DNA of 64,000 nucleotides from Oscillospiraceae bacterium (GTDB lineage: Bacteria > Bacillota > Clostridia > UBA1381 > UBA9506). Each line of letters begins with the position of its first letter. Position 1 is the stretch's first letter. The position numbers and the translations under genes are program-made. The notes beneath the pieces were generated by a model. It was not told where the DNA came from and ran no database searches. It saw only the letters and a list, made by a program, of their open reading frames with translations. Below, piece by piece: positions 7,073 through 58,598 of this stretch. The DNA is taken from assembly GCA_015069045.1 (NCBI GenBank), contig SVJJ01000002.1, positions 1 to 64,000 of the forward strand. The letters run 5' to 3'.

Positions 7073-8206
7073 TTAAAACTTAGTGGGAATTTCAACAGAA
7101 ATACCACCCTGTTTTGCTGACATTTCTGCATATTTACCTGCAATAGACATTTGAATACCTGCATCAACATCAAGGGGTGATTCTGTATTATTTAAAATAC
7201 AATCCGCAAAGACTTCTACCATTTTGGCATCTGCACCGCCATGACTACCCACAGGCATACGAGGACGTTCATAATCAGGAAATGGTGTAGCAACCGGAAT
7301 GTCAATTTTACCCTCTGTGTTCGGAAAATCAGCAAGTCTTGCAAATGTGTGGGCAATGTGAAAGTCATTATTTCTGTCTGTCTCTAAAGTACCCCTCTCG
7401 CCATAAATCGTGAAATTATGATCATGGCCCACATTGACACCAGAACCAATAAATATTTTAATCAACGAACCCTTTTCCGTTCTAAAAATTGCAACCTGGT
7501 CCTTAGCACCTGTTATATAGTCCGGTTTATGTTCATATTTAAGCTCAGGCGTAAAGCAAGTAACACTTACGCATTTATCATCTAAAATATAAAGAAGAGG
7601 ACCTAAATTATGTGTTAAATAGGTAATAGAGTTAAGTCTGGCGCGCCAGGTCGGGTTTCCATTCTCATCAATGGCTCTGTTTACAGGCGGACGGCCACCA
7701 ATGGCTGGATCATAATAAAGATGGTGCAAATATTCGCTTTCGGCAAACACAGCCTTGCCCAAAAGGCCTTTTTTATACATGTGTTTCCATGTGTGAATAA
7801 AACCCCAGAAGCAACAGTTTTCACCTGCCATATATTTAAGCTCCGGATGAGCTGCAACCGCTTCTTTAAGGTTTTTTGCATCCTCAAGTGTTCCTATGGT
7901 AGGAATTTCACTTAATACATGTTTCCCTGCGTTTAACGCCTTAATTGCCATCGGTGTATGTAAAGAAATTTCGGTTGCAATGATAACTGCATCAATATCC
8001 GACTTAAGCAAATCGTCATAATTATCAAAACAAAGTAAATTGTCACACTTAACATTGTGACGTTTAAAGGATTCTTTGGCAACTTCAAAACGTTCAGGAT
8101 TAATGTCGCAAATTGCGTGAAGAACACCTTTTTTTCCATCACATGAATTTGCCAGGTCAATACCTCTTCCAAGACCTACGACGCCAATTTTTACATAATC
8201 GCTCAT
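7073..8206 (-). CDS. Gfo/Idh/MocA family NAD(P)-dependent sugar oxidoreductase
   Basis: A 377-residue protein with an N-terminal Rossmann fold (KIGVVGLGRGIDLA at residues 5-18), the family motif EIPTIG in place of EKP (in HVLSEIPTIGTLEDA near residue 100), and a C-terminal catalytic/dimerisation domain ending with a typical MSIAGKYAEMSA helix. Members oxidise or epimerise sugars, inositols or glycosides; the substrate cannot be deduced here. The ATG at 8206 follows GGAGG. The open frame extends 28 codons upstream but into the promoter region. It is a single-gene unit. Confidence 0.85.
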   Translation of the reverse strand: MSDYVKIGVVGLGRGIDLANSCDGKKGVLHAICDINPERFEVAKESFKRHNVKCDNLLCFDNYDDLLKSDIDAVIIATEISLHTPMAIKALNAGKHVLSEIPTIGTLEDAKNLKEAVAAHPELKYMAGENCCFWGFIHTWKHMYKKGLLGKAVFAESEYLHHLYYDPAIGGRPPVNRAIDENGNPTWRARLNSITYLTHNLGPLLYILDDKCVSVTCFTPELKYEHKPDYITGAKDQVAIFRTEKGSLIKIFIGSGVNVGHDHNFTIYGERGTLETDRNNDFHIAHTFARLADFPNTEGKIDIPVATPFPDYERPRMPVGSHGGADAKMVEVFADCILNNTESPLDVDAGIQMSIAGKYAEMSAKQGGISVEIPTKF

Positions 8207-8261
8207 TGTGATTTTCCTCCGTCCATTATTATATGATTGATAATAATTTAAAATCGGTTCT

Positions 8262-8290
8262 ATCTTATCAGTAAATATCCACTTTGTCAA
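8262..8290 (-). promoter_or_regulatory. Promoter of the Gfo/Idh/MocA gene
   Basis: On the minus strand, TTGACA (8290-8285), 17-base spacer, TAAGAT (8267-8262), about 56 bases upstream of the chosen ATG. A strong SigA-type match. Confidence 0.7.
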
Positions 8291-8356
8291 TACTTTTTCA
8301 CATAATAAATCAATTTTTTTGCAATACTAAGAAAAAAAGAAAAGGACTGATATAAT

Positions 8357-9028
8357 ATGCATTTAGCACTAATTCGTACATTAATTTTATACATAGTGGT
8401 TATTGGTGCATTGCGACTTATGGGAAAGCGACAAATTGGGCAGTTGCAGCCTTCTGAACTTGTTGTTGCCATGATGCTCTCAGAACTTGCGTCTATACCA
8501 ATGGAAAGCGTAGGCACTCCACTTACCGCAGGGATTATTCCGATTTTAACACTTATGATAGCCGAAACGACCTTTTCTTTTTTAACTTTAAAAAGCCGAC
8601 GTATGCGAAAAATTTTGTCCGGCTCCCCTACTATATTAATAGAAAAAGGTCAAATTTTAGAAAGTGAATTAGAACGGTTGCGATACAACATAGACGATTT
8701 ATTAGAGGAACTAAGAACAAGCGGATATGCAAATATTTTAGATGTAGAATATGCCATTATTGAATCAAACGGAAATTTAAGTGTTATTCCAAAATCTAAC
8801 AAAAGGCCACTGACGCCCGAAGATATAAAGTTAAATCCTCAATATGAAGGCATCCCCTTTTTATTAGTTACAGATGGCAGGTTAAATCAACAAGCCATGA
8901 ATGATGCCGGCGTAACAATTGAATGGCTTTTAGAACAGTTAAAAACCTATAATATTTATGATATAGAAGATGTTTTTTTAGCCACTTTAGATTCTTCCGG
9001 TAAATTATATGTTCAGAAAAAAATATGA
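8357..9028 (+). CDS. DUF421 (YetF/YrbG-type) membrane protein
   Basis: A 223-residue protein with two to three N-terminal membrane segments (residues ~1-70), the family stretch LRLMGKRQIGQLQPSELVV near residue 19, and a cytoplasmic C-terminal domain with ILIEKGQI and the family-typical NIDDLLEELR. The function of the family is not established; B. subtilis members are spore- or envelope-associated. The start follows AAAGGAC. The DUF4363 gene follows after 15 bases, a pairing seen in other Clostridia. Confidence 0.85.
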   Translation: MHLALIRTLILYIVVIGALRLMGKRQIGQLQPSELVVAMMLSELASIPMESVGTPLTAGIIPILTLMIAETTFSFLTLKSRRMRKILSGSPTILIEKGQILESELERLRYNIDDLLEELRTSGYANILDVEYAIIESNGNLSVIPKSNKRPLTPEDIKLNPQYEGIPFLLVTDGRLNQQAMNDAGVTIEWLLEQLKTYNIYDIEDVFLATLDSSGKLYVQKKI

Positions 9029-9043
9029 AAGGAATAACCTATC

Positions 9044-9424
9044 ATGAGAACCTTCATTGGTGCAATGGTGATTTTGTTTGTCATAATTATAGGTGCAGGT
9101 ATTTATATGCATTGGCTAAATAGTACTGTTCAACACCTAGATGCCAACCTGGATGCTTTAATTACGAGCGTAGAAACAAGTGATTGGCATAGCACATACA
9201 CAGGCATAAATCAGTTTTTATCGAATTGGGATCATATTTACCCAAAGCTTGAATTATTTATTCATCACAATGAAATCGATAAAATAAATACCCTACTTTA
9301 CGAGATAAAAGGCTATGCTCACGTGAAAAAAAGAGAGGAATTTTTAGTAAAAGCGGGTGTACTGCAAGTGCTTATACGGCAACTTCCTATTGGAGAACAA
9401 ATAACCGGAGAAAACATTTTATAA
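9044..9424 (+). CDS. DUF4363 family membrane-anchored protein
   Basis: A 126-residue protein with one N-terminal membrane segment (residues ~4-24) and a helical extracytoplasmic domain. It matches the DUF4363 pattern by length, topology and genomic pairing with DUF421. No catalytic motif is visible. The ATG lies after GAAAGGAATAACCTATC. It is probably co-transcribed with the DUF421 gene; the function is unknown. Confidence 0.75.
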   Translation: MRTFIGAMVILFVIIIGAGIYMHWLNSTVQHLDANLDALITSVETSDWHSTYTGINQFLSNWDHIYPKLELFIHHNEIDKINTLLYEIKGYAHVKKREEFLVKAGVLQVLIRQLPIGEQITGENIL

Positions 9425-9515
9425 GGAATATATCATCTTCAGGCACAGCTTATAACTGATACACATACAATAATATATACCGGTTTAAAGCTCTGCTTTT
9501 ACCGTTTATATAGAC

Positions 9516-9547
9516 GGGAGGTCACGGCAAAAGCTTGTTGACCTCCC
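9516..9547. other. Inverted repeat ahead of the small Cys-rich gene
   Basis: Arms GGGAGGTCA (9516-9524) and TGACCTCCC (9539-9547), with further partial pairing outside. No T tract follows on either strand. It may be a 5' leader hairpin of the 48-residue protein gene or a weak terminator of the DUF421/DUF4363 pair. Confidence 0.4.
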
Positions 9548-9578
9548 CATCTGTTTAAACTAAAAAGGAAGTGATAAA

Positions 9579-9725
9579 ATGACAACCATAAATTGCTCAA
9601 AATCCTGTAAATTTCAAATAGACGGCAAATGCTGTTGTGATAACGTTTTAATTCCTCTAAATGAACCATCAAAATTCGCTGAATTAACTTGCCCTTACCA
9701 AACACCAGCAGAATCAAAAAAATAA
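9579..9725 (+). CDS. Small cysteine-rich protein, 48 residues
   Basis: ATG at 9579 preceded by AAAAAGGAAGTGATAAA; 48 codons to TAA at 9723-9725. Six cysteines are arranged as C-x3-C, C-x-... with CCC near residues 18-20 and TCPY at 38-40. It resembles the small clostridial proteins often mislabelled 'hydroxymyristoyl-ACP dehydratase' (pattern INC...C.......C..........CPY). A zinc or iron-sulfur role is possible but unproven. A terminator-like hairpin follows at 9755-9792. Confidence 0.7.
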   Translation: MTTINCSKSCKFQIDGKCCCDNVLIPLNEPSKFAELTCPYQTPAESKK

Positions 9726-9754
9726 GTATTTATAAGAAAAAAAATAATAAAATA

Positions 9755-9792
9755 ACTGCCGCAACACTTTAAAAACATAGTGTCACAGCAGT
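9755..9792. terminator. Bidirectional terminator between the small Cys-rich gene and rlmH
   Basis: Stem ACTGC..ACACT / AGTGT..GCAGT with a few wobble positions and a short A-rich loop. In the minus direction it is followed by a T-rich tract, as expected after rlmH. Convergent genes flank it. Confidence 0.6.
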
Positions 9793-9808
9793 ATTGATAT
9801 ACAGCTTT

Positions 9809-10288
9809 TTATTTATGATAGTTTTCCCCGGCGTTAATTTTAAATGCCCGATAAATTTGTTCCAGAAGAACCACGCGCATAAGTTGGTGAGGAAAGGTCA
9901 TGGCAGAAAAAGACAAACAGTAATTGCTTCGGGCCTTAACCTCTTTAGATAAACCATTGGAACCGCCAATAATCAACACCAACCGCCCGGAACCCATTTG
10001 TTGAATCTGGGTAATTTTATCTGCTAAAGATTCAGAGGAAATTTGACATCCCTCCACACAAAGAGAAACAACATAATCCCGTGGCCACAGTAATGCTAAA
10101 AGCCGTTCTCCTTCTTTTTCCATAGCTTGGTGTAATTGCGCATCAGAAACTCGCTCTCCTACCGCTTCATCTTTGACCTCTGTGATATGCAGTCGACAAA
10201 AACGAGATAATCGTTTTCCATATTCAGCGCATGCTTCTACCCAAAATTTTTCTTTCAGTTTTCCGACGCATAAAATTTCAATTTGCAT
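9809..10288 (-). CDS. rlmH: 23S rRNA (pseudouridine1915-N3)-methyltransferase RlmH
   Basis: A 159-residue SPOUT methyltransferase. The C-terminal knot shows VLIIGGSNGLSKEV and the end motif SFSAMTFPHQLMRVVLLEQIYRAFKI followed by YHK, both characteristic of RlmH (YbeA/YydA). It methylates pseudouridine 1915 in helix 69 of 23S rRNA. The ATG at 10288 has GGGAGGCG upstream and lies one base after the walJ-like stop, so the two genes are probably co-translated. Confidence 0.95.
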   Translation of the reverse strand: MQIEILCVGKLKEKFWVEACAEYGKRLSRFCRLHITEVKDEAVGERVSDAQLHQAMEKEGERLLALLWPRDYVVSLCVEGCQISSESLADKITQIQQMGSGRLVLIIGGSNGLSKEVKARSNYCLSFSAMTFPHQLMRVVLLEQIYRAFKINAGENYHK

Positions 10289-10289
10289 T

Positions 10290-11096
10290 TTAAAAGCGCC
10301 TCCCATTAGTTGATTGGTCAATCCAATATCGGGGTAAAATGTTTAAAACCGGTTCAACATTACCCTTAACAAACGTATTTTGCAGAATATTTGATACTGT
10401 TTGATAGGCTAAATCCGGTCGATTGTTTTCTGCCGAAAGATGACCCAGCCAGAATGAACGAGTGCCGTTTTGGGCTAGTTGTACGCATAATTCCCCACAA
10501 TGTTCATTAGAAAGATGTCCTTTGTCTCCCAAAATTCTTTTCTTTAAATAATAGGGGTATCGTCCATTTTTTAGCATATCAACATCGTGATTGGCTTCAA
10601 TAATAACCGCATGGCTGCCTAAAAGCGCCTCTATCAAGCCATCATTTACATGACCTAAATCTGTGGCAATGGTAAATTTTTCACCATCTTGCTCAAAACT
10701 ATATCCAACCGGCTGCGCAGCATCATGGGGAATAGGAAAGGAACTAACCACTAACCCCTTTATAAGCATTTTTGATTCCGTAATACGTTTATTTTGTGGT
10801 GCAATAACACCCAAACTGTTTTCCATGGCATCCCAAGTTTTTGGAGTAGCATAAATCGGTATATTAAATTTTCTGGATAAAATTCCTGCGCCGGCTATAT
10901 GATCTTTATGCTCGTGAGTTATAAAAATACCAGCTAAATCTGCAGGCAAAACACCAAGCCGCCGCATACATTCGCAAACATATTGTCCGCCTGCACCACA
11001 ATCTACCAACAAATTCACAGTGCCATTTGTTATAAATGTGCAATTCCCTGAGGAACTGCTTAAAAATGATTGAAAACTAATCACATTACACCTCAT
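10290..11096 (-). CDS. walJ: WalJ/YycJ-like metallo-beta-lactamase-fold hydrolase
   Basis: A protein of about 268 residues with the MBL metal motif THEHKDH near residue 60, an aspartate in ATDLGHV and the final His in WLGHLSAENN. The N-terminal SFLSSSSGNCTFI is typical of WalJ/YycJ (usual form 'SLASGSSGN'). WalJ-type proteins are implicated in cell-wall and DNA-repair coordination; the substrate is unknown. The start is uncertain: ATG 11096 or GTG 11084, the latter closer to a GAGGTG box. Confidence 0.8.
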   Translation of the reverse strand: MRCNVISFQSFLSSSSGNCTFITNGTVNLLVDCGAGGQYVCECMRRLGVLPADLAGIFITHEHKDHIAGAGILSRKFNIPIYATPKTWDAMENSLGVIAPQNKRITESKMLIKGLVVSSFPIPHDAAQPVGYSFEQDGEKFTIATDLGHVNDGLIEALLGSHAVIIEANHDVDMLKNGRYPYYLKKRILGDKGHLSNEHCGELCVQLAQNGTRSFWLGHLSAENNRPDLAYQTVSNILQNTFVKGNVEPVLNILPRYWIDQSTNGRRF

Positions 11097-11126
11097 AATT
11101 AGCATGCAATATTTAGTATGATATGT

Positions 11127-41100: not shown

Positions 41101-42798
41101 TTATATACCCATTTCTGTAAAGGCCTGCAAAACACCATCACAAACTGCTTGTGCTAATTTTTGCCGATAGGCCTCCGTCATCATTTTTTCACACTCTTCC
41201 AAATTAGATATAAACCCAATTTCAATCAATGTAGCCGGCATTTTGGTAGAATTCACAACCGCCAATCCCTTGCCGTCCTTCACTCCTCGATCATATGCTT
41301 CTGTTTCTTCCAACAAGTTTTCTAACAAAATTTCAGATAGTCGTTGGCTGGTCATACCATTAGATACCGAGCCTGCTTCTAAATATCCATAGGTTTCAAT
41401 ACCATTTGCTGTCGGCGTTGTGGCTGAATTGGTGTGAATACTTACAAAAAGGGATGTTCCCGCGTCATTGGCAATGCTGCCTACACGCAAATAATCCACG
41501 TAAACATCCTCACTACGAATCATGTGTACCTCTACACCTTCAGCCTCTAACAGCTTTTGTGCACGAAGAGCAACATCTAAATTAAAGTCTTTTTCTTTGG
41601 CTAAAATTTCCCCATCCTCATCATATGCTACTGCGCCTCCATCAGCTCCACCATGTCCGGCGTCTAGAGTGACAGACCGTGGTAAAGCCTTATGAACTGA
41701 CTTAAGACGTACCTCATTCTCTTGCATATACATTTCTGCATCAGAGGATTTAAGTTCTATTGTGATGGTGCCTTCAGTCGCATCTTTTCCCGGCGTATAC
41801 ACCATTTTTTGTCCAAAAAAGCCGGTTACATCCTTTTCTGCAGGTTCATCAGGTAAATTCTCCCCCGAAATAGGAATGGTGACCTTGTTGCCTTTTTTGA
41901 TTGCATTGCCTATGGTGCAGTTTATCTTCACATAGTCTCTGCCACCTTCATAACCATATGTAACCAACTCGAAAATGTCCTTAATCTCCGGCTTAGCAAG
42001 CGTCTGATCAACCGTAATGGTAACGATAATATTTTTCCCTTCACTGCGAACTGAATATCCTAAATCTGCAGTCAAATCCACAACAATTCGTGCCGCATCT
42101 GTTTGCTGCCCAAAGCGTATGGCGCTGACATTTCCATTATCTGCTTCAATCACATCCGGTATTTTTGAAAAAACACCACCAATAACATCCAGAACAAGGC
42201 GTGTTGGCTCTTCTAACATAAAGGCCTTATGTTCCGGTTTTTCAGTATCTGTTATAAGAGTTAATGTTGTTTTTGTATCGCTAACCTCTTTATACTTTAC
42301 TTTGGAAACCTGTATAACCTGTTTTTTGTTATCGGTAATAGAAATCGTATCTGTGTCGCTATCAAAATCAACTGTCATACCCAATTGCTCCCCTACAAAA
42401 CGTGCCGGAATCATAGTGTAGTCGTTAATAATCTTTGGTGCAATAGGCATCATAACCGTTGCCCCATCCAACATAGCCGTTTTTTGATTAATAAACATAA
42501 CAAGTTTTGTGTTTTGCAGGGTAACCGTTACCTTTTGTGCCGATGCATTCCAGGCAACCTCTGCTCCCAATCCATCTTGAAAAACAGCACGGGCGGGCAC
42601 TAAGGAATAATCTGAAAAAACAATAGGTGGCACAACCGGTTCCAATTCTGTTTCATTGACTATCAACTTAAACAGATTGCCGGTATAAATATGGGTTTCT
42701 CCATCATAAAAAAGTTCTAATCCGTTTGCACTGCAAAGCGTAGTCAAAAATAACATGATCACCATTGCCATGCACGGAATCCATTTTTTTGCACTCAC
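41101..42798 (-). CDS. N-acetylmuramoyl-L-alanine amidase with stalk and AMIN domains
   Basis: A 565-residue secreted protein: signal peptide (~1-25), copper-amine-oxidase-type stalk domain (~40-155, with LVPARAVFQDGLGAEVAW and MIPARFVGEQLGM), AMIN domain(s) (~165-275), and a C-terminal amidase_3 domain (~375-563). Zinc ligands are visible in DAGHGGADGG, the E of EKDFNLD and the H of SIHTNS; the catalytic E is in LIEIGFISN. It cleaves the glycan-peptide bond of peptidoglycan. GTG start 42798 overlaps the ruvX stop (GTGA). Confidence 0.93.
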   Translation of the reverse strand: MSAKKWIPCMAMVIMLFLTTLCSANGLELFYDGETHIYTGNLFKLIVNETELEPVVPPIVFSDYSLVPARAVFQDGLGAEVAWNASAQKVTVTLQNTKLVMFINQKTAMLDGATVMMPIAPKIINDYTMIPARFVGEQLGMTVDFDSDTDTISITDNKKQVIQVSKVKYKEVSDTKTTLTLITDTEKPEHKAFMLEEPTRLVLDVIGGVFSKIPDVIEADNGNVSAIRFGQQTDAARIVVDLTADLGYSVRSEGKNIIVTITVDQTLAKPEIKDIFELVTYGYEGGRDYVKINCTIGNAIKKGNKVTIPISGENLPDEPAEKDVTGFFGQKMVYTPGKDATEGTITIELKSSDAEMYMQENEVRLKSVHKALPRSVTLDAGHGGADGGAVAYDEDGEILAKEKDFNLDVALRAQKLLEAEGVEVHMIRSEDVYVDYLRVGSIANDAGTSLFVSIHTNSATTPTANGIETYGYLEAGSVSNGMTSQRLSEILLENLLEETEAYDRGVKDGKGLAVVNSTKMPATLIEIGFISNLEECEKMMTEAYRQKLAQAVCDGVLQAFTEMGI

Positions 42799-43236: not shown

Positions 43237-45471
43237 TCAACCATTAGCTTGCTCCATAAGCTTGTATGCAATATGAGCATTTTCTTCTGCTAAACGCATT
43301 AACTCTGTCTTTTTATCCATTAGTCTCTGCTTAATAGCACTATAATCCTTATAAACCATGTCAACAGTTTCTACCAATTTCTGACATTCCAATGTATCAA
43401 CTGATATGGCCGTTCCCATTCCTATATATTCCATGAAGGCATCCACCTTTGTATCATAGGAAAGCCCTACAGTAGGCACTAATCCATTAGCCGCATATAT
43501 TAAAGAATGAAGCCTTTCTGCTAACACAATTTCCATGGAACCCACAAGGCCTATCATAACAGATGCCGGAAGCGACTCAGAAAGGATATATCCCCCACAG
43601 GTCATCTGGGCTTCAATTTTGCAAGAAAGGTCATAATCTTCGGGATACTTCATGGGAATAAAAACGGGGGTAAATCCGTAAATTTTACAAAGTAAATCAA
43701 TGCCTTCTGCCATAACCCGGTCAAAATCGGGTCGACTGTTTTTCCAAGGTCGAATGGCTATGCCTAAAATTTTAGCATATTTATCTATACCTAATTGTTG
43801 TAGCACTTGCTGAACAGCAGCATCGTCTGCCACAGGTAGCGTCAATGCAGGGTCAGCTGTTACAATGATATGCTCACAGGCCACGCCTAAATTAGTTAAT
43901 TCCTCTAAGGAAGCTGTTTCCCTTAAGGTAATGGTTTCCACGTTTTCAAGTGCATTTTTAACAGCCAACCGGTTTTTTTCTTTTTGGATGGGACCAATAC
44001 CATTGGCATAGAGCATAACCGGTGTGTGTGCCTTCTTCGCCATGTTAATTAAGAACAAATAATAGCGCAAGGACCGGCTGGATGTAACATCCTGCAACAA
44101 ACTGCCGCCACCGCTAATAAATAATTTTGCATCTTTAATTACCTTCCTTATGCGGCCATAACAAAATCGATTAATTGAATATACCCCATGGGTCTGAATC
44201 GTTTCTGCCGGATTTTTGGAAAGCACACACAATTTCATATCAGGGTTTTCTGCGCGCAAATGAGTCAACATGGCGGAGAGCAAAGCTTCATCGCCTGAAT
44301 TTTTATAACCATAATAACCGGAGATCACAGCATCCCAGGATTTATGGTTCACCGCATCACAATACATGGCCACGTTATCTGCCATCATTTTGGAAACAGA
44401 ATAATATTGACATATAATTTGGCGAGAATATGTCCCCCACTTTTCTGTTTGGGCTTCATCAGCAGATAAAACCTTTTGTACATCTGCAAATAATTGTTGT
44501 GATGTTGATGCTTCTAAACCACGACAACAAAAGTTTGTATCGATACCAACTTGTAGCTTGCTCTCATCAAAAATACCTAAATACCCTTCATTACCAGCCA
44601 CAATAACAGGCTTAGCACAAGCCATGGCCTCTAAAGCAGAACGAGAAACACCAATAAATAAATCTGCCATAGCGGCAAATCGATCAATATCTGTCCGTCC
44701 GCCGGCTAGCGTAATCATGGGTCGACCAATTTGGTCATTAATTTTATCCGTTAGCGCTTGTAGCTTATCAAACACATTGCCGGAACCGACAATTACAATA
44801 TCTGTATGGGGAAAAGCCTCGTTAATTTTAGGCGCAATTTCAACTAAATGAAAAGCAACTAACGCCCTATCCTCATCCATACGACTAATGTAAACAATTT
44901 TTTTGCTCTCCTTCTTTAAGGAAAACTCTTGAAGTAAAGAGGAATAATCAACATTCGGGGAAAATTTTTCTGTATCAATGCCGTTAATTGTCAAGTAAAT
45001 ATCCTTGGAATCTGTTCCATAATTCTCTATTAAGTACGTCTTAATATCCTCACTAACAGACATAACCTTTTCGCCCCAATTAGACAAATATTTAAACCCA
45101 TGGGTAGTCCTAAATACCCAATGAGCCGTGGTTACAAAGGTAAAAGACATAAAAGGATGCAACAAACCGCATAAAAAGGCAGGAATTCGACCATGTGCAT
45201 GAACGATATCAATTTTTTCTTTTTGAATAATCTGCCGCAGTGCCCATAGGGATTTTATTACTTTACCGGGACTCTTGGTGTACATAGGTACACGATAGTG
45301 TTTAATATCTGCCTCCTCAAGATGTTTTTCGTAGACGCCGCCACCTGAAGCAACAACAACCTGATATCCTTGGCGAGCCAACTCTAAGGAAAGCTCTAAC
45401 ACATGTGTTTCCGCACCGCCAATTTCAAGCCGCATTAACGTCATTAAAATTTTTTTATTTTTAATGTCCAC
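43237..45471 (-). CDS. csaB: GT4 glycosyltransferase-CsaB polysaccharide pyruvyl transferase fusion
   Basis: A 744-residue two-domain protein. Residues ~1-370 form a GT4 glycosyltransferase (MRLEIGGAETHVLELSLEL near residue 13, ADLFIGVSRSALEAMACAKPVIV near residue 270). Residues ~385-742 form a CsaB-type pyruvyl transferase (VISGYYGYKNSGDEALLSAML, FISGGGSLLQDVTSSRSLRYYL, VLAERLHSLIYAANG). CsaB adds ketal pyruvate to secondary wall polymers, the ligand of SLH domains; an SLH protein is encoded at 52.4-56.7 kb. GTG start 45471 has AGGGAGG upstream. Confidence 0.9.
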   Translation of the reverse strand: MDIKNKKILMTLMRLEIGGAETHVLELSLELARQGYQVVVASGGGVYEKHLEEADIKHYRVPMYTKSPGKVIKSLWALRQIIQKEKIDIVHAHGRIPAFLCGLLHPFMSFTFVTTAHWVFRTTHGFKYLSNWGEKVMSVSEDIKTYLIENYGTDSKDIYLTINGIDTEKFSPNVDYSSLLQEFSLKKESKKIVYISRMDEDRALVAFHLVEIAPKINEAFPHTDIVIVGSGNVFDKLQALTDKINDQIGRPMITLAGGRTDIDRFAAMADLFIGVSRSALEAMACAKPVIVAGNEGYLGIFDESKLQVGIDTNFCCRGLEASTSQQLFADVQKVLSADEAQTEKWGTYSRQIICQYYSVSKMMADNVAMYCDAVNHKSWDAVISGYYGYKNSGDEALLSAMLTHLRAENPDMKLCVLSKNPAETIQTHGVYSINRFCYGRIRKVIKDAKLFISGGGSLLQDVTSSRSLRYYLFLINMAKKAHTPVMLYANGIGPIQKEKNRLAVKNALENVETITLRETASLEELTNLGVACEHIIVTADPALTLPVADDAAVQQVLQQLGIDKYAKILGIAIRPWKNSRPDFDRVMAEGIDLLCKIYGFTPVFIPMKYPEDYDLSCKIEAQMTCGGYILSESLPASVMIGLVGSMEIVLAERLHSLIYAANGLVPTVGLSYDTKVDAFMEYIGMGTAISVDTLECQKLVETVDMVYKDYSAIKQRLMDKKTELMRLAEENAHIAYKLMEQANG

Positions 45472-48799: not shown

Positions 48800-49729
48800 T
48801 TAAGATTCTATGTGAATTTCAATCCAGATAAAATTATCATATTCTGTCATATCTGCATAAGTTATATCTTCAACCATTTCTATATCTTCTTTATGGGATA
48901 TATAACCCGTCAGTTTTGTCAATTCATTTAAAAAATCAACTGAATCATTTGGAACGCAAATTCCCTGCTCGGTTACATAAGGCTGCAGCATTTCGTAGGC
49001 CAATGCAAAGCCTTCCGGGGTCATTGTGTAGTGCACAACATTTTTTTGCAATGTATAGGATGCCACTTGTACATCTGGGTTTTCCGTTACATCTGAATCA
49101 CTTGATTCTGATGGAATATATGCCGGGTTTGCATCCCAGTTCTCGGAGGCCGTAGCAATACCGTTTTCCGCCTCTGTTTGCGCGAATTCATTGTTTGTTT
49201 GTCCATCACCCTCATTTGCATGACTGCCGCTTGGCATGTCCTCATCCGCGTGCATTCTTGATATTACTTCGCTGGGAACTCCTTCTGATATTGTTGGTTC
49301 CTTTTGTTCACTTGCAGGTTGTACTCGTGTTACGCTTGCGGTCGGTTCCGGCGTTATCATTTCTTGGCCCGGCAGGCTATCTAGTTTTGGCAGATTGCCA
49401 AAGGTTACAACAGAAAGCACTATCACAGCAGCTACCGCAACAAAACCGGATGCAGTAGAATAAAAATGAAATTTTGGCTTATATGTCTTTTGTTTATTTT
49501 CTGCTTCTGCCACTAATTTTCCATGAAGCTCATTGTGAAATTTGTCTGAAGCAGTTATACTCGGTAATGTGTGTGCCGTTTTTATAACACACGATAGCAC
49601 TTCAAAATCTTGACGACAAACTTCGCAATGAGATAAATGGTCACGAACCGCATCTCGTTCCGCTTCACACAGCACATCATCTATGTACTGCGGTAAAAGA
49701 TCTTGTATCTCACAACATGATTTGCTCAC
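48800..49729 (-). CDS. Zinc-finger anti-sigma factor
   Basis: A 309-residue protein. The N-terminal putative zinc-finger anti-sigma domain has HLSHCEVC (HxxxCxxC) near residue 31. One membrane helix spans ~93-112, followed by a Ser/Thr/Glu-rich linker (~120-215) and a C-terminal extracytoplasmic domain (~220-309). It should hold the ECF sigma factor encoded 54 bases upstream at the membrane until an envelope signal releases it. Confidence 0.87.
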   Translation of the reverse strand: MSKSCCEIQDLLPQYIDDVLCEAERDAVRDHLSHCEVCRQDFEVLSCVIKTAHTLPSITASDKFHNELHGKLVAEAENKQKTYKPKFHFYSTASGFVAVAAVIVLSVVTFGNLPKLDSLPGQEMITPEPTASVTRVQPASEQKEPTISEGVPSEVISRMHADEDMPSGSHANEGDGQTNNEFAQTEAENGIATASENWDANPAYIPSESSDSDVTENPDVQVASYTLQKNVVHYTMTPEGFALAYEMLQPYVTEQGICVPNDSVDFLNELTKLTGYISHKEDIEMVEDITYADMTEYDNFIWIEIHIES

Positions 49730-49783
49730 TGTGTTCCCTCCCTTCCTCGCTACATGATTATAGTTTTTTATACCATATAGACG

Positions 49784-50368
49784 TTACTGCAACAAAAAAA
49801 GTTCCTTATGGGGCTGCAAAATTTTTTGTAAAGCACGTCGCGCCCGATTAATTCTGGATTTAACCGTACCAGGTGCCGCATGAATAATTTGACCTATTTC
49901 TTCATAAGAAAGTCCTTCCACATCCCGCAAAATAATCACCTTTCTCTGTTGCTCTGAAAGTTGATTTAAGGCCGAAAGTAGTGCCTGTTGAGCCTCGTTA
50001 AGCTGAGCTTGTTCATAAGGTGTTGGTGCTGTATCTGCCAAAGGTAAAACAAACTCCTCCCCTTCATCATTATATTGATGAATCGTAATCGTTTCCTTCG
50101 GCTGTCGCTTAGCTTTACGCAGAAAATCCAAACAAATATTAGAAGCAATTTTATATAGCCAGGTTGAAAATGAGGATTGACCGGTAAAACTGCCAATAAA
50201 GCGAAAAACCTTAACAAACGTTTCCTGGGCAGCATCCTCCGCATCTGATTGATTCCCCAGCATGCGATAACAATAGTTTAATATTTTATTTTCGTAGTCT
50301 TGTATTAACATTTCAAATGCTTCAACATCACCATTTTGACAGCGCTGAATTTGTTCTTGTTCAGACAC
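49784..50368 (-). CDS. ECF-type RNA polymerase sigma factor
   Basis: A 194-residue sigma factor. Region 2 contains YCYRMLGNQSDAEDAAQETFVKVFR near residue 30; region 4 contains LSEQQRKVIILRDVEGLSYEEIG near residue 135 and GTVKSRINRARRAL. It resembles the SigW group. GTG 50368 is preferred over the GTG four codons earlier because AAGGTGG lies 8 bases upstream. A perfect palindrome GGTGATCACC (50369-50378) fills the gap between ribosome binding site and start. The anti-sigma gene follows. Confidence 0.9.
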   Translation of the reverse strand: MSEQEQIQRCQNGDVEAFEMLIQDYENKILNYCYRMLGNQSDAEDAAQETFVKVFRFIGSFTGQSSFSTWLYKIASNICLDFLRKAKRQPKETITIHQYNDEGEEFVLPLADTAPTPYEQAQLNEAQQALLSALNQLSEQQRKVIILRDVEGLSYEEIGQIIHAAPGTVKSRINRARRALQKILQPHKELFLLQ

Positions 50369-50410
50369 GGTGATCACCACCTTTACAATGTTGTCAGGGT
50401 CTTATTCTAC

Positions 50411-52341: not shown

Positions 52342-52372
52342 AATACTCCCTGTAAAATTTACAGGGAGTATT
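52342..52372 (-). terminator. Terminator of the cohesin/dockerin/SLH operon
   Basis: Perfect 15-base arms AATACTCCCTGTAAA/TTTACAGGGAGTATT around one base, followed in the minus direction by TTTTATG, about 20 bases after the SLH gene stop. Confidence 0.87.
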
Positions 52373-52393: not shown

Positions 52394-55300
52394 TTATTTG
52401 GTAAATCTTACAAACACTGTTGCAAGCTCAGCACGGGTTGCATTAGCAAGAGGAGCAATAGTTCCATCTGCATTACCACCCATAATACCGTTAGCACATG
52501 CCCACTCAATAGCATCAACAGCATATTCAGAAATACTGTCTGTATCAGAGAAAGCAGGTACTTCAGCATCTTCGCCTACAGCAACATCCATGCCCATTGC
52601 TTTTGCGTATCTGTAAAGCATTGTTGCCATCTGCTCACGAGTAATATTGCTATCCGGTGCAAATTCATTTTCTGTCACACCGTTTACAATTTCGTTTCTC
52701 TTAGCCCAAGCAACAGCACTTGCGTAGTAGCTATCTGCAGATACATCACTAAAGGCAATATCCTTGGTATCCATTGTATCGCCAGATAATCTATGAAGAA
52801 CAGTTACAAACATAGCTCTTGTTACAGCAGCATCAGGAGCAAACTCGGTTTCAGATACGCCATTCATCAAGCCTGCTTCGTTGGCAGCCATAACTGCATC
52901 ATAGTACCATGCACCTTCTACAACATCTGCAAAGGTAACTACCGGTTCTTCGCCTGATGCTTCCTCAGCCCATTTAGCATACAGTGTAAAGGATTTAGCA
53001 ACCTTAGCAGCAAAATCATACGCTTGAGTCAATTCTGCATCTGTATACCAGCCTTCAAATTCAAAGCCATCTTTTGTAGGTGCAATCGGTTCAGCTATAA
53101 CTGCATTTTCAATGACAGTTGCAGCTGCTACATCACTACCGCCATTGGATTCAAAAGTAACGGTATACTGGGCTGGTTTGGAAACGCCACTGCTGGGACG
53201 TACAGTCGAATTAGGTTCAGTGTAAACAACATAATCAGAGAAATGTTCAACTTCTAAGATAGCATATGTGCCATCGTGTGTAACACTAACCGCTTCTTCA
53301 TTACCTAAGTCATCAATGTACTTAGCTTTAATTCTGCCAGTATCCTTTACATAAGGAATCTTAACTTTAACCTTGTTACCAGTACCAAATGTGGTTACTG
53401 CACCATCATTAATTTTCAGTTCAACAGCCGTTACGTTTGTTGCATCTTCAGGAATGACATCCAACTGAGCTTCTGTCAATGTAGCCGGCTTAACATCCAG
53501 GTGCATATCAACGCTGGCGCCAAGAGCGGTGGAAATGTGTGAAAGAACATCACGGCTAAATTCAACAACAGCTTCTGTTAATGTAATTGAAACAGGTCTT
53601 GTAGCAATCAGTTTGTCAACTAATTCATAAGGAACAATAACCGTTTCAGTTGTTTCGGTTTCATTTTCTGTCATATCAATTGAAGCAGCTTCGGTATCCT
53701 CTTCAATTGCATCAAGAGCAGCTTGATCAACAACAATAATCGCAGCGTTGCCATCAGCTCTAGAAACTGTAATGGTAACATCATTTTCTGTACCTTCAGC
53801 AGGGGCTTCAGCTGCAGCAATTTCAATGTCTACATTTTCTAAAACTGTATTTGTTAAGTTGTAATTAGATGCTGCATCACCTGTTAAAACAATGTTAGAA
53901 ACCGTTGCCTTACCAGCACCAACTGTCTTGTCGGTAATGGTTATATCAATTACATCAAAATCAATGCCTAAAGCGTCTTGTTCCAAGTTGCCATTGATTG
54001 TTGCCGTTTCACCTGCAAGATCTATAGCTGTAACAGCAACATCCTTCTTGGCAATTGTAAAGGCCTTTTCAATTGTACCACCGGAATAAATGGCACTATC
54101 AAATGTAGCAACGACTACATAATTACCGGCAGCCTTAACATCTGCTACGTCATTATAAATCGTTCCGTCTTCTGCTTTATAAGTAATGGTAACAGTTGCG
54201 TCAAGATCGGCGCTCTCAACGGTTGTACCTTCTTCTCCATTAACGGTCCATGTATATGTTGGAGCCTCAATGGCCTCACCATAAGTCACAGAAGCAACAT
54301 CACTTAAGGTAGCAGTTGCAGGCGTTTTGCTTGTAATGGTGATAACATGTGTTTTATCACCTACAATTGTAACCCACGGAATATCGGCGAATGTCTCATC
54401 TGCAATGGTAAGTTCAACTGTTTTATCGGTTGTCTCTGTAACCTGTGCAGCAATTGCTTGAACAGCTGCCAAATCCTTATCCCAAACGATTACAAGATCT
54501 GTTTGTTCATTACCATAATTTACAGTAATTCTATAGGGAGCGATATCCGGCATATCAATAACATTTTCGCCGATAACAGCAGCCTTTGGAAGTGTGTAAT
54601 CTTCAATTGCTGTAAATGTACCTTCTACAGCCGTTAAGGTTACAGGCACCTCAACATCAAGCTCAGATGTGTCAATATTGTCATTATCAGCTAAAGTACC
54701 AACAAAGGTATAGCTACCGCCCTTAGCATCAAAATCCTCTTCTAAGGCCCAAGTTACAGCAATCGGATCCTTTGAAGAGCCGTTTTCGTACTGTACATAC
54801 TCAACATAGATTTCAGCGGGCAGGCCAAGTTCTGTTGCCAGATCTTCTTCTGTTAAAATGTTAGCCGCTGCACTTAATTCAGCAGGAACATCAGCATTAA
54901 GGTTATATCCTGTAGCAACAGCCTGGGTAATGGTTAATGTTGTAGTTAACTCAGCAGGATTATTATAATTTTCGTTAGATGTTGTAAATGTAACAGTAAC
55001 TGTATATTCACCTGCATTTAAAGGAGTCGCAGAATAGGTGATTTCATAACTTACACCATCAGGAACCGTAATATTGGTATCTAAATAATCATATTCACGA
55101 CCTTCATATACCTCAGTCTGAGGTGCCAATGCAACTTCTAAATCTGTATAATCTGCTTTAGCAATGGTAAAGTCATCACTAATAGCGGTGTAGATTGTAT
55201 CATCAGTTTCGCATACTACTGTTACTTTATAAGTACCGGCCTCAGTAGGCTTAATGGCAGATGAATACGGGTCGCCGTTAGCAAGAGTACCTGTATAAAG

Positions 55301-56653
55301 AACGGTGTGATCACCTTCATGAACCGGCTCGCCGTTTAATACAAAGTCAGCAAGTGCTTCACCATAAGTACAACCCTCTTGGGTAACTGTCATGGTAGAA
55401 TCATCTGTTTCTTTAACAACAATTGAAACGGTAATGGTTGCTTCATCAGCAGCATAGTATCCGCCAACTGCATCAGAGTTAATCTTAACAGTGATGGTGC
55501 CTGTTACGGCACCTGCCGTAATAACACCATTTTCAAGAGTAGCTTCTTCAGGAAGGTCACCATCTACTGTATAAACAAGAACTGCGCCCTCTGCATTTGA
55601 AGTACACAAGGTACTTAAATCAAGAGTTCCACCAACACGAACACTGGGTGTTGGGTTTGCAACAGTAATAATTTGTTCTGCTTTATCTGTTGTAATAGTG
55701 GCAGTTACGCTTTCACTTTTTTCATGTGTAGCAGTTTCTTTTACACGAGTATATACTGTATAAGCTGTATCAGGAGCAAGATCTGTGAATACACCGGTAT
55801 CGTTCCAATTAGCTGTTGGCTCAGTAGCTTCTGTTGTAATAGCATATTCCTGACCGTTTACAGCATCGGTAACCATTACGGTTGTATCGGTTGCGGTTAA
55901 TTCCGGTGCAATAGCTGTTTCTGCACATGCAGCCTTGTTAACTGTTACATCAAATTCTTTTGTAACACTTGCATCATTAAACTTACCAGCATCTTCATCG
56001 TTTACGGTAAATGTAACTTGCAGTTTTGCTGTACCAACAGCCGGTGTTTCAGTGCCGTTCTCTAATGAGAAAGTACCTGTATATTCTTTACCGTTAACAG
56101 TAACAACACCACTTGTGGGTAATTCTACAGCTGCGCTTAATGCATCGCCATAGGAGATAGCTTCAGGTGAAAACTCCCAAGTAACATCTTCTGCATCAAA
56201 ATCATACTTCGGCAAAGAAATGGAGCCATCTATAAGGGTGACATCCGTCCTATCTACTTGAGCTTTTGAACCGGAAATTACATATGTTCCGGGTTCTGCA
56301 TCATTTTTAACTAAAAATGTTAGTTTTAAAATAACACCATCAACAGCAACATTGCTGGAATATGCAGCACCTAAATTGTTCCTAGCCTCGTCCCAGCTTG
56401 CTAACGTAGGACTTCCAACCGAAACAACCTCATAGCCGGTAAGTTCTAAGGCAGTCGTATCATAATCGGCTAATGTGAATGCATAAGATTTTACGGATGA
56501 AGCTTGCAAGGATAATGTAAGCTCTACGGTGTCGCCCGGTTCTGCATTTGCACTACTAATGGTCATACTGCTCGTTGTTGCAACAACGCCGATAGTAGAC
56601 ATTGTAGAAAACACAAGAAGAACACTCAGCATTAAACTTAGAAATTTTTTCAT
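52394..56653 (-). CDS. Large SLH-anchored surface protein with cohesin-like N-terminal domain
   Basis: A 1419-residue secreted protein. A signal peptide (~1-25) is followed by a cohesin-like domain (~27-148: ANAEPGDTVELTLSL, YDTTALELTGYEVV, VDGVILKLTFLVK, IDGSISL). Then comes a long stalk of beta-sandwich modules resembling bacterial Ig, MBG and YDG repeats (~150-1150), an InlB-type B-repeat (~1160-1228, VTFESNGGSD..FEGWYTDAELTQAYDF) and three SLH domains (~1230-1419) with TRAM, TREQ and TRAE in the usual TRAE position. SLH modules bind pyruvylated wall polymer. It is the third gene of the operon. ATG 56653 is used; an ATG seven codons upstream is possible. No catalytic domain is visible. Confidence 0.9.
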   Translation of the reverse strand: MKKFLSLMLSVLLVFSTMSTIGVVATTSSMTISSANAEPGDTVELTLSLQASSVKSYAFTLADYDTTALELTGYEVVSVGSPTLASWDEARNNLGAAYSSNVAVDGVILKLTFLVKNDAEPGTYVISGSKAQVDRTDVTLIDGSISLPKYDFDAEDVTWEFSPEAISYGDALSAAVELPTSGVVTVNGKEYTGTFSLENGTETPAVGTAKLQVTFTVNDEDAGKFNDASVTKEFDVTVNKAACAETAIAPELTATDTTVMVTDAVNGQEYAITTEATEPTANWNDTGVFTDLAPDTAYTVYTRVKETATHEKSESVTATITTDKAEQIITVANPTPSVRVGGTLDLSTLCTSNAEGAVLVYTVDGDLPEEATLENGVITAGAVTGTITVKINSDAVGGYYAADEATITVSIVVKETDDSTMTVTQEGCTYGEALADFVLNGEPVHEGDHTVLYTGTLANGDPYSSAIKPTEAGTYKVTVVCETDDTIYTAISDDFTIAKADYTDLEVALAPQTEVYEGREYDYLDTNITVPDGVSYEITYSATPLNAGEYTVTVTFTTSNENYNNPAELTTTLTITQAVATGYNLNADVPAELSAAANILTEEDLATELGLPAEIYVEYVQYENGSSKDPIAVTWALEEDFDAKGGSYTFVGTLADNDNIDTSELDVEVPVTLTAVEGTFTAIEDYTLPKAAVIGENVIDMPDIAPYRITVNYGNEQTDLVIVWDKDLAAVQAIAAQVTETTDKTVELTIADETFADIPWVTIVGDKTHVITITSKTPATATLSDVASVTYGEAIEAPTYTWTVNGEEGTTVESADLDATVTITYKAEDGTIYNDVADVKAAGNYVVVATFDSAIYSGGTIEKAFTIAKKDVAVTAIDLAGETATINGNLEQDALGIDFDVIDITITDKTVGAGKATVSNIVLTGDAASNYNLTNTVLENVDIEIAAAEAPAEGTENDVTITVSRADGNAAIIVVDQAALDAIEEDTEAASIDMTENETETTETVIVPYELVDKLIATRPVSITLTEAVVEFSRDVLSHISTALGASVDMHLDVKPATLTEAQLDVIPEDATNVTAVELKINDGAVTTFGTGNKVKVKIPYVKDTGRIKAKYIDDLGNEEAVSVTHDGTYAILEVEHFSDYVVYTEPNSTVRPSSGVSKPAQYTVTFESNGGSDVAAATVIENAVIAEPIAPTKDGFEFEGWYTDAELTQAYDFAAKVAKSFTLYAKWAEEASGEEPVVTFADVVEGAWYYDAVMAANEAGLMNGVSETEFAPDAAVTRAMFVTVLHRLSGDTMDTKDIAFSDVSADSYYASAVAWAKRNEIVNGVTENEFAPDSNITREQMATMLYRYAKAMGMDVAVGEDAEVPAFSDTDSISEYAVDAIEWACANGIMGGNADGTIAPLANATRAELATVFVRFTK

Positions 56654-56702
56654 GGTTTCTACCGTTCCTTTCATATTTTATAAAAAATTATTTGTAATTC
56701 AA

Positions 56703-57311
56703 TCAGTTACCCAAAGTAGGATATAAGGGATAATCTTCCTCTCCAAACAAACAATTGAATAATAGATGAATAGCATCGTCTTCATCAAATTCGCCACTGC
56801 CATCTACATCAGGATCTAGGGTAATGGGATAATCTTCAGCACCAAATAAACAATTAAATAACAGATGAATGGCATCATCCTCATCGAATTCGCCACTACC
56901 ATCCATATCACCGGGCACAGCATCAGATGATGCGCCACCAACAACGATGTTACCGATAGCAGTAGCACTTTGCAGGCCGAAACCACCAACAAAGGCGGTA
57001 GCACCTGCAAATTCATCACCGGTATCACGCAAGCCAAATTTTCCAAAGGATATTACATTGCCTACGGCTGTTGCCTGATCAATGTACAGAATCTTTTCCT
57101 CCAGATTCTCATCACTAAGATCAAGAACTTCTTTGTTCAAGCCCTCAATAATAACAAGTCCAAACTCGCCATTTTGAGAAGCACCATCAATTGTTACATC
57201 ATTAATTGTAACATAACCATCCCCGCCAAGTCTAAAATCAGTAGCGGCAACACCAATAGCCTGGGACATCAGCATGATAACCGCCAATGAAATGACAAGA
57301 ATTTTCTTCAT
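56703..57311 (-). CDS. Secreted protein with C-terminal dockerin-like repeat pair
   Basis: A 202-residue protein: signal peptide (~1-23), a beta-rich unknown domain (~25-128), and a C-terminal dockerin-like module (~133-198). Two calcium-loop repeats each read DxDGSGEFDEDDAIHLLF followed by NCLFG and an EDYP end, spaced 33 residues apart, matching the duplicated F-hand loop plus helix of dockerins (D-x-[DN]-G-x-[GD]...D). Each repeat carries one Cys, which is unusual. It is the natural ligand candidate for the cohesin-like domains encoded on either side. Confidence 0.85.
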   Translation of the reverse strand: MKKILVISLAVIMLMSQAIGVAATDFRLGGDGYVTINDVTIDGASQNGEFGLVIIEGLNKEVLDLSDENLEEKILYIDQATAVGNVISFGKFGLRDTGDEFAGATAFVGGFGLQSATAIGNIVVGGASSDAVPGDMDGSGEFDEDDAIHLLFNCLFGAEDYPITLDPDVDGSGEFDEDDAIHLLFNCLFGEEDYPLYPTLGN

Positions 57312-57349
57312 CTCTTCTTCCTCCTTAAATAATGTATTTAGTATATATT

Positions 57350-58357
57350 TTAAATAATACCCATAATAGAAAGCAACATTTCGTTAATTGCCGTAATTTC
57401 AATTTGACGTTGCGGAACCCAGGGATTGTCCTTAGGAGAAATGACAACAGCACTATTAATCGGTTCCCAATACACATCACAATCTAAATGTTCCGAAACA
57501 AACCGTACCGGCACCATCGTTCTGTCATAGAGCATTTCAATGGGAGCCTCATAGGTGTATGTTTCACCATTTACCGTAAACTCGTTTGAATTAAACACAA
57601 ACTGGATTTCCTTGTCACCTTTTTTTACAATGCAGCCATCCCAGCCTTCTTCCCACAAAACCTCAGCCTGCAGGGCTTCGCTAATGAACCGCAGAGGAAC
57701 CATTGTGCGACCGTTATTAATATAAGGAACAACAAGGGGATTTTCGTCATCAATATATGTTTTAACATTATATGTAATGGTTAAATTCTTATTAATCTTC
57801 AAACAAATGACATCTTTCTTCCGTTCTAAACTGGTAAGAACTTTGTCTGTTTCTTCAGCCTCCGGCACAACATCGTCAGGCTCTTCTGTTGGTGCTGTGG
57901 AAACAGCCAATCCATCTACCTCTATGGTAGCGGTAGTGGTTTTAATGGTCTCTTTATTAACTATAGCATCAAAAGATATATCATATGTACCGGATACTGC
58001 CGTGTCTTTAACCTTGAGTTGTAATGTTAAAATTGTCTCATCAACCAAGGCTGGTGCAGAATAGGCTGCAGCAAGAACCCTGGTTTCGCTATCCCACTTA
58101 TTAATTACCGGAGCCTCTGTGTTGCCCTCAACCCCTGCAATAAGTTCAAAAACTTTCTCGTTAAAAGAAATATTATGCACGCCATAGGTTTTTACGTTTT
58201 CCCCACGTAGTGTTATGGTTACATCAAAGGTTTCACCGACTTTAGCGACCGCCTTAGATGGTGTAATCGTTGCAACATCTCCCCCTGCATATACTATCCC
58301 GCATATAGAAAATACAAGGAGAGCACAACAGCACAGGCTCATAACTCTCTTAACCAA
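57350..58357 (-). CDS. Secreted protein with cohesin-like and copper-amine-oxidase-type stalk domains
   Basis: A 335-residue protein: signal peptide (~1-24), a cohesin-like domain (~27-148: PSKAVAKVGETFDVTITL, FNEKVFELIAGVEG, ETILTLQLKVKDTAVSGTYDI), an acidic Pro/Glu linker (~152-172), then a stalk domain (~185-300: NNGRTMVPLRFISEALQAEV and LYDRTMVPVRFVSEHLDCDV). No SLH or LPXTG anchor is visible, so surface attachment, if any, is by another route. TTG 58357 gives proper spacing to GAGGAG; ATG 58363 abuts the box. First gene of the three-gene operon. Confidence 0.87.
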   Translation of the reverse strand: MVKRVMSLCCCALLVFSICGIVYAGGDVATITPSKAVAKVGETFDVTITLRGENVKTYGVHNISFNEKVFELIAGVEGNTEAPVINKWDSETRVLAAAYSAPALVDETILTLQLKVKDTAVSGTYDISFDAIVNKETIKTTTATIEVDGLAVSTAPTEEPDDVVPEAEETDKVLTSLERKKDVICLKINKNLTITYNVKTYIDDENPLVVPYINNGRTMVPLRFISEALQAEVLWEEGWDGCIVKKGDKEIQFVFNSNEFTVNGETYTYEAPIEMLYDRTMVPVRFVSEHLDCDVYWEPINSAVVISPKDNPWVPQRQIEITAINEMLLSIMGII

Positions 58358-58598
58358 AATCATTCTCCTCTCTCGTAAAAAAATAACATAGCATTCAAAA
58401 AGTTGTTATAATATTACATGTCATACCAACAAAATAAAAAAGGACAACAACTCTTCATTTGTAGACAAATACATTATAGCATAAATTTATAATACCGTCA
58501 ACAAAATAATTACACAAAATCCACAAAAATTTTTATCCTACATGCATAAATTTTTGCATGTTCATAATGTAACATTTTATGCGACCATAAAGAAAAAA

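Follow-up and report, generated by a model that had tools for sequence, protein, structure and literature searches.

The window analysed here, a stretch of 64,000 nucleotides (positions 1 to 64,000 of contig SVJJ01000002.1, assembly GCA_015069045.1) from an Oscillospiraceae bacterium, carries on its minus strand a three-gene operon that we read, with a probability of about 0.7, as a self-contained, enzyme-free cohesin-dockerin display module. The genes, P0001, P0002 and P0003 in 5' to 3' order, all run in the same direction. In the model that we favour, secondary wall polymers would hold both P0001, through its Cu_amine_oxidN1 module, and P0003, through its three SLH domains, in the wall, and each protein would present a single N-terminal cohesin, that of P0001 near the wall and that of P0003 at the tip of a stalk of ~1,000 residues of immunoglobulin (Ig)-like sequence. 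Secreted P0002 would be the mobile part: its calcium-loaded, two-fold-symmetrical dockerin would dock on either cohesin, and its N-terminal domain of ~110 residues would be displayed at one of two heights. The least supported step of the model is the role of the displayed domain, for which adhesin or coat subunit is no more than a guess. The proteins and their domains are as follows.

57350..58363, minus strand: P0001, 337 amino acids, secreted (hydrophobic signal-like N-terminus), with an N-terminal cohesin and a C-terminal Cu_amine_oxidN1 (both by Pfam)
57926..58267, minus strand: P0001 cohesin domain (PF00963, 28.3 bits in the protein scan, 30 bits in the genome scan)
57440..57733, minus strand: P0001 Cu_amine_oxidN1 module, a probable wall-polymer-binding anchor by analogy with OlpC (PF07833, 98.1 bits)
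56703..57311, minus strand: P0002, 202 amino acids, secreted, with a signal peptide, a 'YIDQ' domain of ~110 amino acids without annotation and a C-terminal dockerin-like pair
56922..57242, minus strand: P0002 N-terminal domain with YIDQ and GG motifs and homologues in sister genera
56715..56915, minus strand: P0002 dockerin-like double EF-hand in two near-identical halves
52394..56653, minus strand: P0003, ~1,419 amino acids, with a cohesin, a long Ig-like stalk, a List_Bact repeat and three SLH domains (reading frame open from 56674)
56219..56566, minus strand: P0003 cohesin domain (PF00963, 36.6 bits with the N-terminus scanned alone, 36 bits in the genome scan)
52973..53167, minus strand: P0003 List_Bact or InlB-type repeat (PF09479, 71.7 bits)
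52421..52936, minus strand: P0003 three SLH domains (PF00395)

The two cohesins both exceed the PF00963 gathering cut-off of 24.1 bits and are paralogues with 33% identity over 127 amino acids, signal peptides included. When both were combined with four homologues, the resulting profile matched 36 PDB sequences, whose names were nearly all those of cellulosomal scaffoldins, anchoring proteins or NagJ, with the OlpC cohesin (4dh2) among them. Single sequences gave less: the P0003 cohesin alone matched antibody chains beside cohesins in PDB, and phmmer with P0001 found no PDB match. The first-pass annotation of this DNA, made from the sequence without database searches, had described P0001 as a free protein made of a cohesin-like domain and a stalk. 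Its cohesin stands, at 28.3 bits, while the supposed stalk is the Cu_amine_oxidN1 module, and the protein is probably anchored rather than free, because a cohesin joined to Cu_amine_oxidN1 is the layout of OlpC and ScaG (PMC3413522, PMC4582956) and the OlpC domain has been reported as a binder of secondary cell-wall polymer (Pinheiro et al., as cited in PMC4582956). Cohesin proteins with this module have likewise been classed as anchoring by the authors of a 2024 screen (PMC11557425).

For P0003, Pfam bore out the cohesin, the InlB repeat and the SLH domains that had been proposed for it, and the ~1,000 residues between cohesin and List_Bact repeat are Ig-like sequence that matches weakly. The SLH ligand is made by a CsaB-type pyruvyl transferase. 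Because the genome, which contains 40 SLH matches, encodes such an enzyme, anchoring of P0003 through its three SLH domains is plausible; the gene lies within the window.

43237..45471, minus strand: glycosyltransferase-4 fused to a polysaccharide pyruvyl transferase of the CsaB type (PF04230; no further gene of this family was found genome-wide)

Both cohesins are therefore probably wall-anchored. Elsewhere in the window (41101-42798, minus strand), an N-acetylmuramoyl-L-alanine amidase carries an N-terminal Cu_amine_oxidN1, the module also seen in P0001, together with an AMIN domain.

The C-terminus of P0002 is homologous to dockerins, and we regard it as a divergent dockerin on the strength of a sister-dockerin profile, of orthologues that reach the Pfam threshold, of the PDB matches of the family and of its own near-identical halves. 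The profile, built from nine sister dockerins with P0002 left out, found P0002 with an E of 3.6e-5 (Z=1500 proteins) as its only significant match in the window, where the next protein scored 0.24. Orthologues exceeding the PF00404 (dockerin type I) gathering cut-off of 22.9 bits were present at loci L022 (27.6), L062 (29.4), L118 (30.2), L121 (25.2) and L130 (23.2 bits). With P0002 included, the family profile had dockerins as its best PDB matches (best 5e-10); phmmer with P0002 alone had no match in PDB. The EF-hand pair consists of two 28-residue copies of DxDGSGEFDEDDAIHLLFNCLFGxEDYP that are identical at 26 of the 28 positions in protein and differ by nine silently changed codons, so that the repeat is no chance motif; such identity despite silent change is what would be expected if selection keeps the halves alike. 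Each copy comprises a calcium loop, DxDGSGxFDxxD, with aspartates at loop positions 1, 3, 9 and 12, followed by an F-helix, AIHLLFNCLFG, in keeping with the two ~22-residue repeats that define type I dockerins.

No cellulosome is apparent around these proteins. The host genome (1.48 Mb in 26 contigs, 97.5% complete) holds two PF00963 cohesins, both in the operon and one per protein, and the genome-wide search for further dockerin proteins that the first-pass annotation had called for returned none besides P0002, whether with PF00404, with P0002 as query or with the family profile. Cohesin and dockerin modules are thus restricted to this operon. It shares cohesin, dockerin and SLH parts with cellulosomes and differs from them in that neither a multi-cohesin scaffoldin nor a dockerin-bearing carbohydrate-active enzyme nor a carbohydrate-binding module (CBM) was called; the Pfam scan of the three proteins agrees with the earlier statement that they contain no enzyme or CBM domain. 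An ordinary cellulosome was rejected, no other dockerin or cohesin having been found in the genome. The proposal of a structural use instead of a cellulosome is supported both by this genome, with no other dockerin detected, and by similar enzyme-free arrangements in other Clostridia.

A class-wide search of 391 genomes added to these arrangements, and 23 loci were tabulated. A contig search with the P0001 sequence had found no relative, and one with an alignment found five. The nearest same-strand upstream gene was a Cu_amine_oxidN1 gene in 13 of the 23 related loci, a count that comes from loci chosen by P0002 homology and carries no background rate for such a neighbour. Within the family, the same order, a Cu_amine_oxidN1 protein whose N-terminus is a cohesin or resembles one, followed by a P0002-type protein, occurs in four genera (the window, L022 and L023 in one genome, L026, L055 and L056). 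The P0002-type proteins there combine the P0002 N-terminal domain with a C-terminal dockerin; in most family relatives a CarboxypepD_reg domain, absent from P0002, separates these two parts. Two relatives are ruminant-gut metagenome-assembled genomes (MAGs), from water buffalo colon and goat cecum.

Outside the family, Pfam-grade cohesin and dockerin are adjacent at two loci. At L062, from a goat-rectum MAG, a protein with a Pfam cohesin (25.9 bits) and Cu_amine_oxidN1 adjoins one composed of the P0002 N-terminal domain, two Big_2 domains and a dockerin; at L130, the closest parallel to the window, the dockerin protein adjoins two proteins with cohesin and SLH domains (36.2 and 34.8 bits). Several loci without an upstream Cu_amine_oxidN1 gene, L130 among them, have as their next downstream gene a secreted protein with a cohesin, with sub-threshold matches at L123 (22.9), L126 (15.7) and L128 (21.6 bits). 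The local dockerin profile gave no match on L131, L132 or L128; the L131 protein has a dockerin-like repeat by eye. In L022 the third operon gene (7565-11113) contains two stretches that pass as cohesin, and its C-terminus is a dockerin (39.7 bits) in place of the three SLH domains of P0003. Its stalk and that of P0003 are weakly similar (E 3e-4 over 84 residues), so that this exchange of anchors is a positional comparison and not proven orthology. By eye, the L022 gene contains further divergent cohesin-like repeats. Upstream of the L062 pair, a 1,408-residue protein (L062:5464-9690) carries three SLH domains and has an N-terminus that, also by eye, resembles the YIDQ domain of P0002. The downstream neighbour of the P0002-like gene at L122 (1-2201, minus strand) has a long (Asp-Ala)n repeat at its end.

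The recurrence of similar pairs across Clostridia suggests that the coupling serves to hang a small protein on the surface. We take the system to be a variation on cohesin-dockerin coupling that recurs and does without enzymes. A broader proposition, to which we lend somewhat less than even odds, is that enzyme-free surface modules, widespread in Clostridia and not yet recognised as a class, encode a YIDQ-type dockerin protein and its cognate wall-anchored cohesin next to each other, with anchors swapping between Cu_amine_oxidN1 and SLH and a dockerin-ended third gene in one sister operon. If so, cohesin-dockerin coupling would be a general means of reversible, calcium-dependent attachment of non-enzymatic surface proteins, and cellulosomes would be one specialised use of it.

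Several observations weigh against the display module. PF00404 had no match to P0002 at E<=10, so the dockerin-like EF-hand pair described by the first-pass annotation is upheld by the family profile and the orthologues and not by the Pfam model itself. A dockerin-only model built from five sequences was of low confidence (pLDDT 58.7, pTM 0.39); its top 24 PDB fold matches were all dockerins or cohesin-dockerin complexes, none of them individually significant (best E 0.06), and given the pLDDT we take them for consistency of ranking only. A single-sequence AlphaFold model of P0002 reached a pLDDT of 36. The cohesins (-7 and -10) and the dockerin (-20) are all acidic. Among the relatives, Pfam found no cohesin at the N-termini of the Cu_amine_oxidN1 proteins of L023, L055, L056, L116, L118 and L121, and these N-termini as a group matched a cohesin profile over the profile start only (probability 33%, single-comparison E 4.5e-4). 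Finally, no P0002 match was found in nine genus-mates, and six loci of the genus that were examined lack the operon while keeping the genes that flank it on one side, indicating that it is dispensable at genus level and lineage-specific there.

Some of these points would suit a different function for the EF-hand pair, namely a calcium-binding stabiliser that does not bind cohesin, with the cohesins being plain Ig-like surface domains. P0002 misses the Pfam dockerin model and has weak EF-hand_6 and EF-hand_1 matches, as this idea would have it, but the spacing of the two loops and F-helices is that of dockerins, and orthologues encoded at the equivalent place in the operon have dockerins above the Pfam cut-off (27.6, 29.4, 30.2 and 25.2 bits) beside cohesin or Cu_amine_oxidN1 proteins; we consider it the least probable of the alternatives. 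Only slightly more credible is a reduced, cellulosome-like remnant whose enzymes have gone and which is idle or in decay. The small genome would fit, as would the multi-cohesin proteins, some with dockerins, of the larger relatives G007 and G008, yet all three reading frames are intact, the dockerin halves differ mostly by silent changes, and other families of the class have the enzyme-free pair as well. We hold it just as improbable that the proteins are receptors for other species, the cohesins capturing dockerins of neighbours or P0002 docking on neighbours' cohesins for scavenging or community attachment. Scavenging has been suggested for Paenibacillus guangzhouensis (PMC11557425), and related genomes come from ruminant hindgut MAGs, where cellulosomal bacteria can be expected; here, however, the gene for a matching dockerin lies between those of the two cohesins, and cohesin and dockerin are inherited as a pair.

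A further alternative is the one originally put forward, in which P0002 bridges the cohesins of P0001 and P0003, cross-linking two surface proteins. As bridging would have it, the operon pairs two cohesins with a single dockerin made of two near-identical halves, but we do not favour it, as near-symmetrical halves are known to go with a dual binding mode in which a dockerin adopts alternative orientations on one cohesin and does not bridge two simultaneously (PMC5429695). No precedent was found in the literature consulted for a dockerin that holds two cohesins at once, as bridging would require; moreover, P0001 is itself probably anchored, and several sister loci show one cohesin-type neighbour gene only in the stretch examined. 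Bridging is therefore unlikely in our estimation, if less so than the other alternatives, and display of P0002 on either cohesin is the likelier arrangement.

Parts of the display module resemble known systems. OlpC of C. thermocellum and ScaG of A. cellulolyticus and C. clariflavum consist of a single type I cohesin and Cu_amine_oxidN1 (PMC3413522, PMC4582956), the same two domains that we found in P0001. Those proteins come from bacteria that make cellulosomes, and binding of enzyme dockerins has been reported for ScaG, whereas the dockerin protein in the operon of P0001 is not an enzyme and its dockerin was the only one found in the genome. The nearest functional analogue is CttA on ScaE in Ruminococcus flavefaciens, where a non-catalytic dockerin protein, believed to mediate adhesion, sits on a surface-anchored single cohesin (PMC5301203). 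CttA differs in having CBMs and an X-dockerin, and ScaE in being sortase-anchored and in also carrying the cellulosome; P0002 lacks CBM and X module alike, and its genome has no cellulosome.

Cohesins and dockerins are known outside cellulosomes (Peer et al. 2009, as cited in PMC4300822), as are single-cohesin proteins of unknown function (PMC11557425). These reports are about modules, whereas in our case a linked cohesin and dockerin gene unit recurs across families, and no description of such a recurrent, linked, enzyme-free unit was found in the open-access literature searched. To be listed in the 2024 RefSeq screen, a genome had to encode a multi-cohesin protein and a dockerin-bearing glycoside hydrolase (PMC11557425), so that genomes like this one would have escaped it. 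Cohesin-dockerin pairs are known mainly as cellulosome glue and as a nanobiotechnology tool, and where a dockerin protein has no catalytic partner, it often goes without explanation. This operon, in a genome with two cohesins and one dockerin in all, would offer a minimal natural system for tests of specificity, stoichiometry and function free from hundreds of cross-reacting modules, and it prompts one to ask if the pair has surface attachment as a general, and perhaps older, use.

The operon further draws attention to a small domain family without annotation that may be put on the surface of gut Clostridia by this coupling. The N-terminal YIDQ domain of P0002 had neither a Pfam match nor a meaningful PDB match and is, judged by its homologues, a candidate new domain family; a comparison of P0002 with plasmid records found nothing. 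The domain was also noticed in other secreted Clostridia proteins (L131, L132, L057 and L059).

The layout of the operon is as the first-pass annotation had it: three co-directional genes, gaps of 38 nucleotides between P0001 and P0002 (57312-57349) and 49 between P0002 and P0003 (56654-56702), and one strong terminator. The second gap presupposes that P0003 starts at 56653, probably the correct start, which is the second ATG of an open reading frame beginning at 56674 and the one that the annotated 49-base gap implies. For P0001, an alternative TTG start at 58357 with a better-spaced ribosome-binding site is possible. Two transcription signals flank the genes.

58473..58501, minus strand: promoter-like site TTGACG-17-TATAAT with an extended -10, in the upstream gap before P0001 (consensus match only)
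52342..52372, minus strand: intrinsic terminator with a 14-bp stem and T run, after P0003, the last gene

The promoter-like site is the best such match of the region. Since promoter- and terminator-like matches in the region are no more numerous than in shuffled sequence, the two signals are consistent with a single transcript and do not prove one. About 2 kb from the operon, a zf-HC2 anti-sigma-type zinc-finger protein (48800-50380, minus strand) is encoded directly behind an open reading frame that reads like an extracytoplasmic function (ECF) sigma factor.

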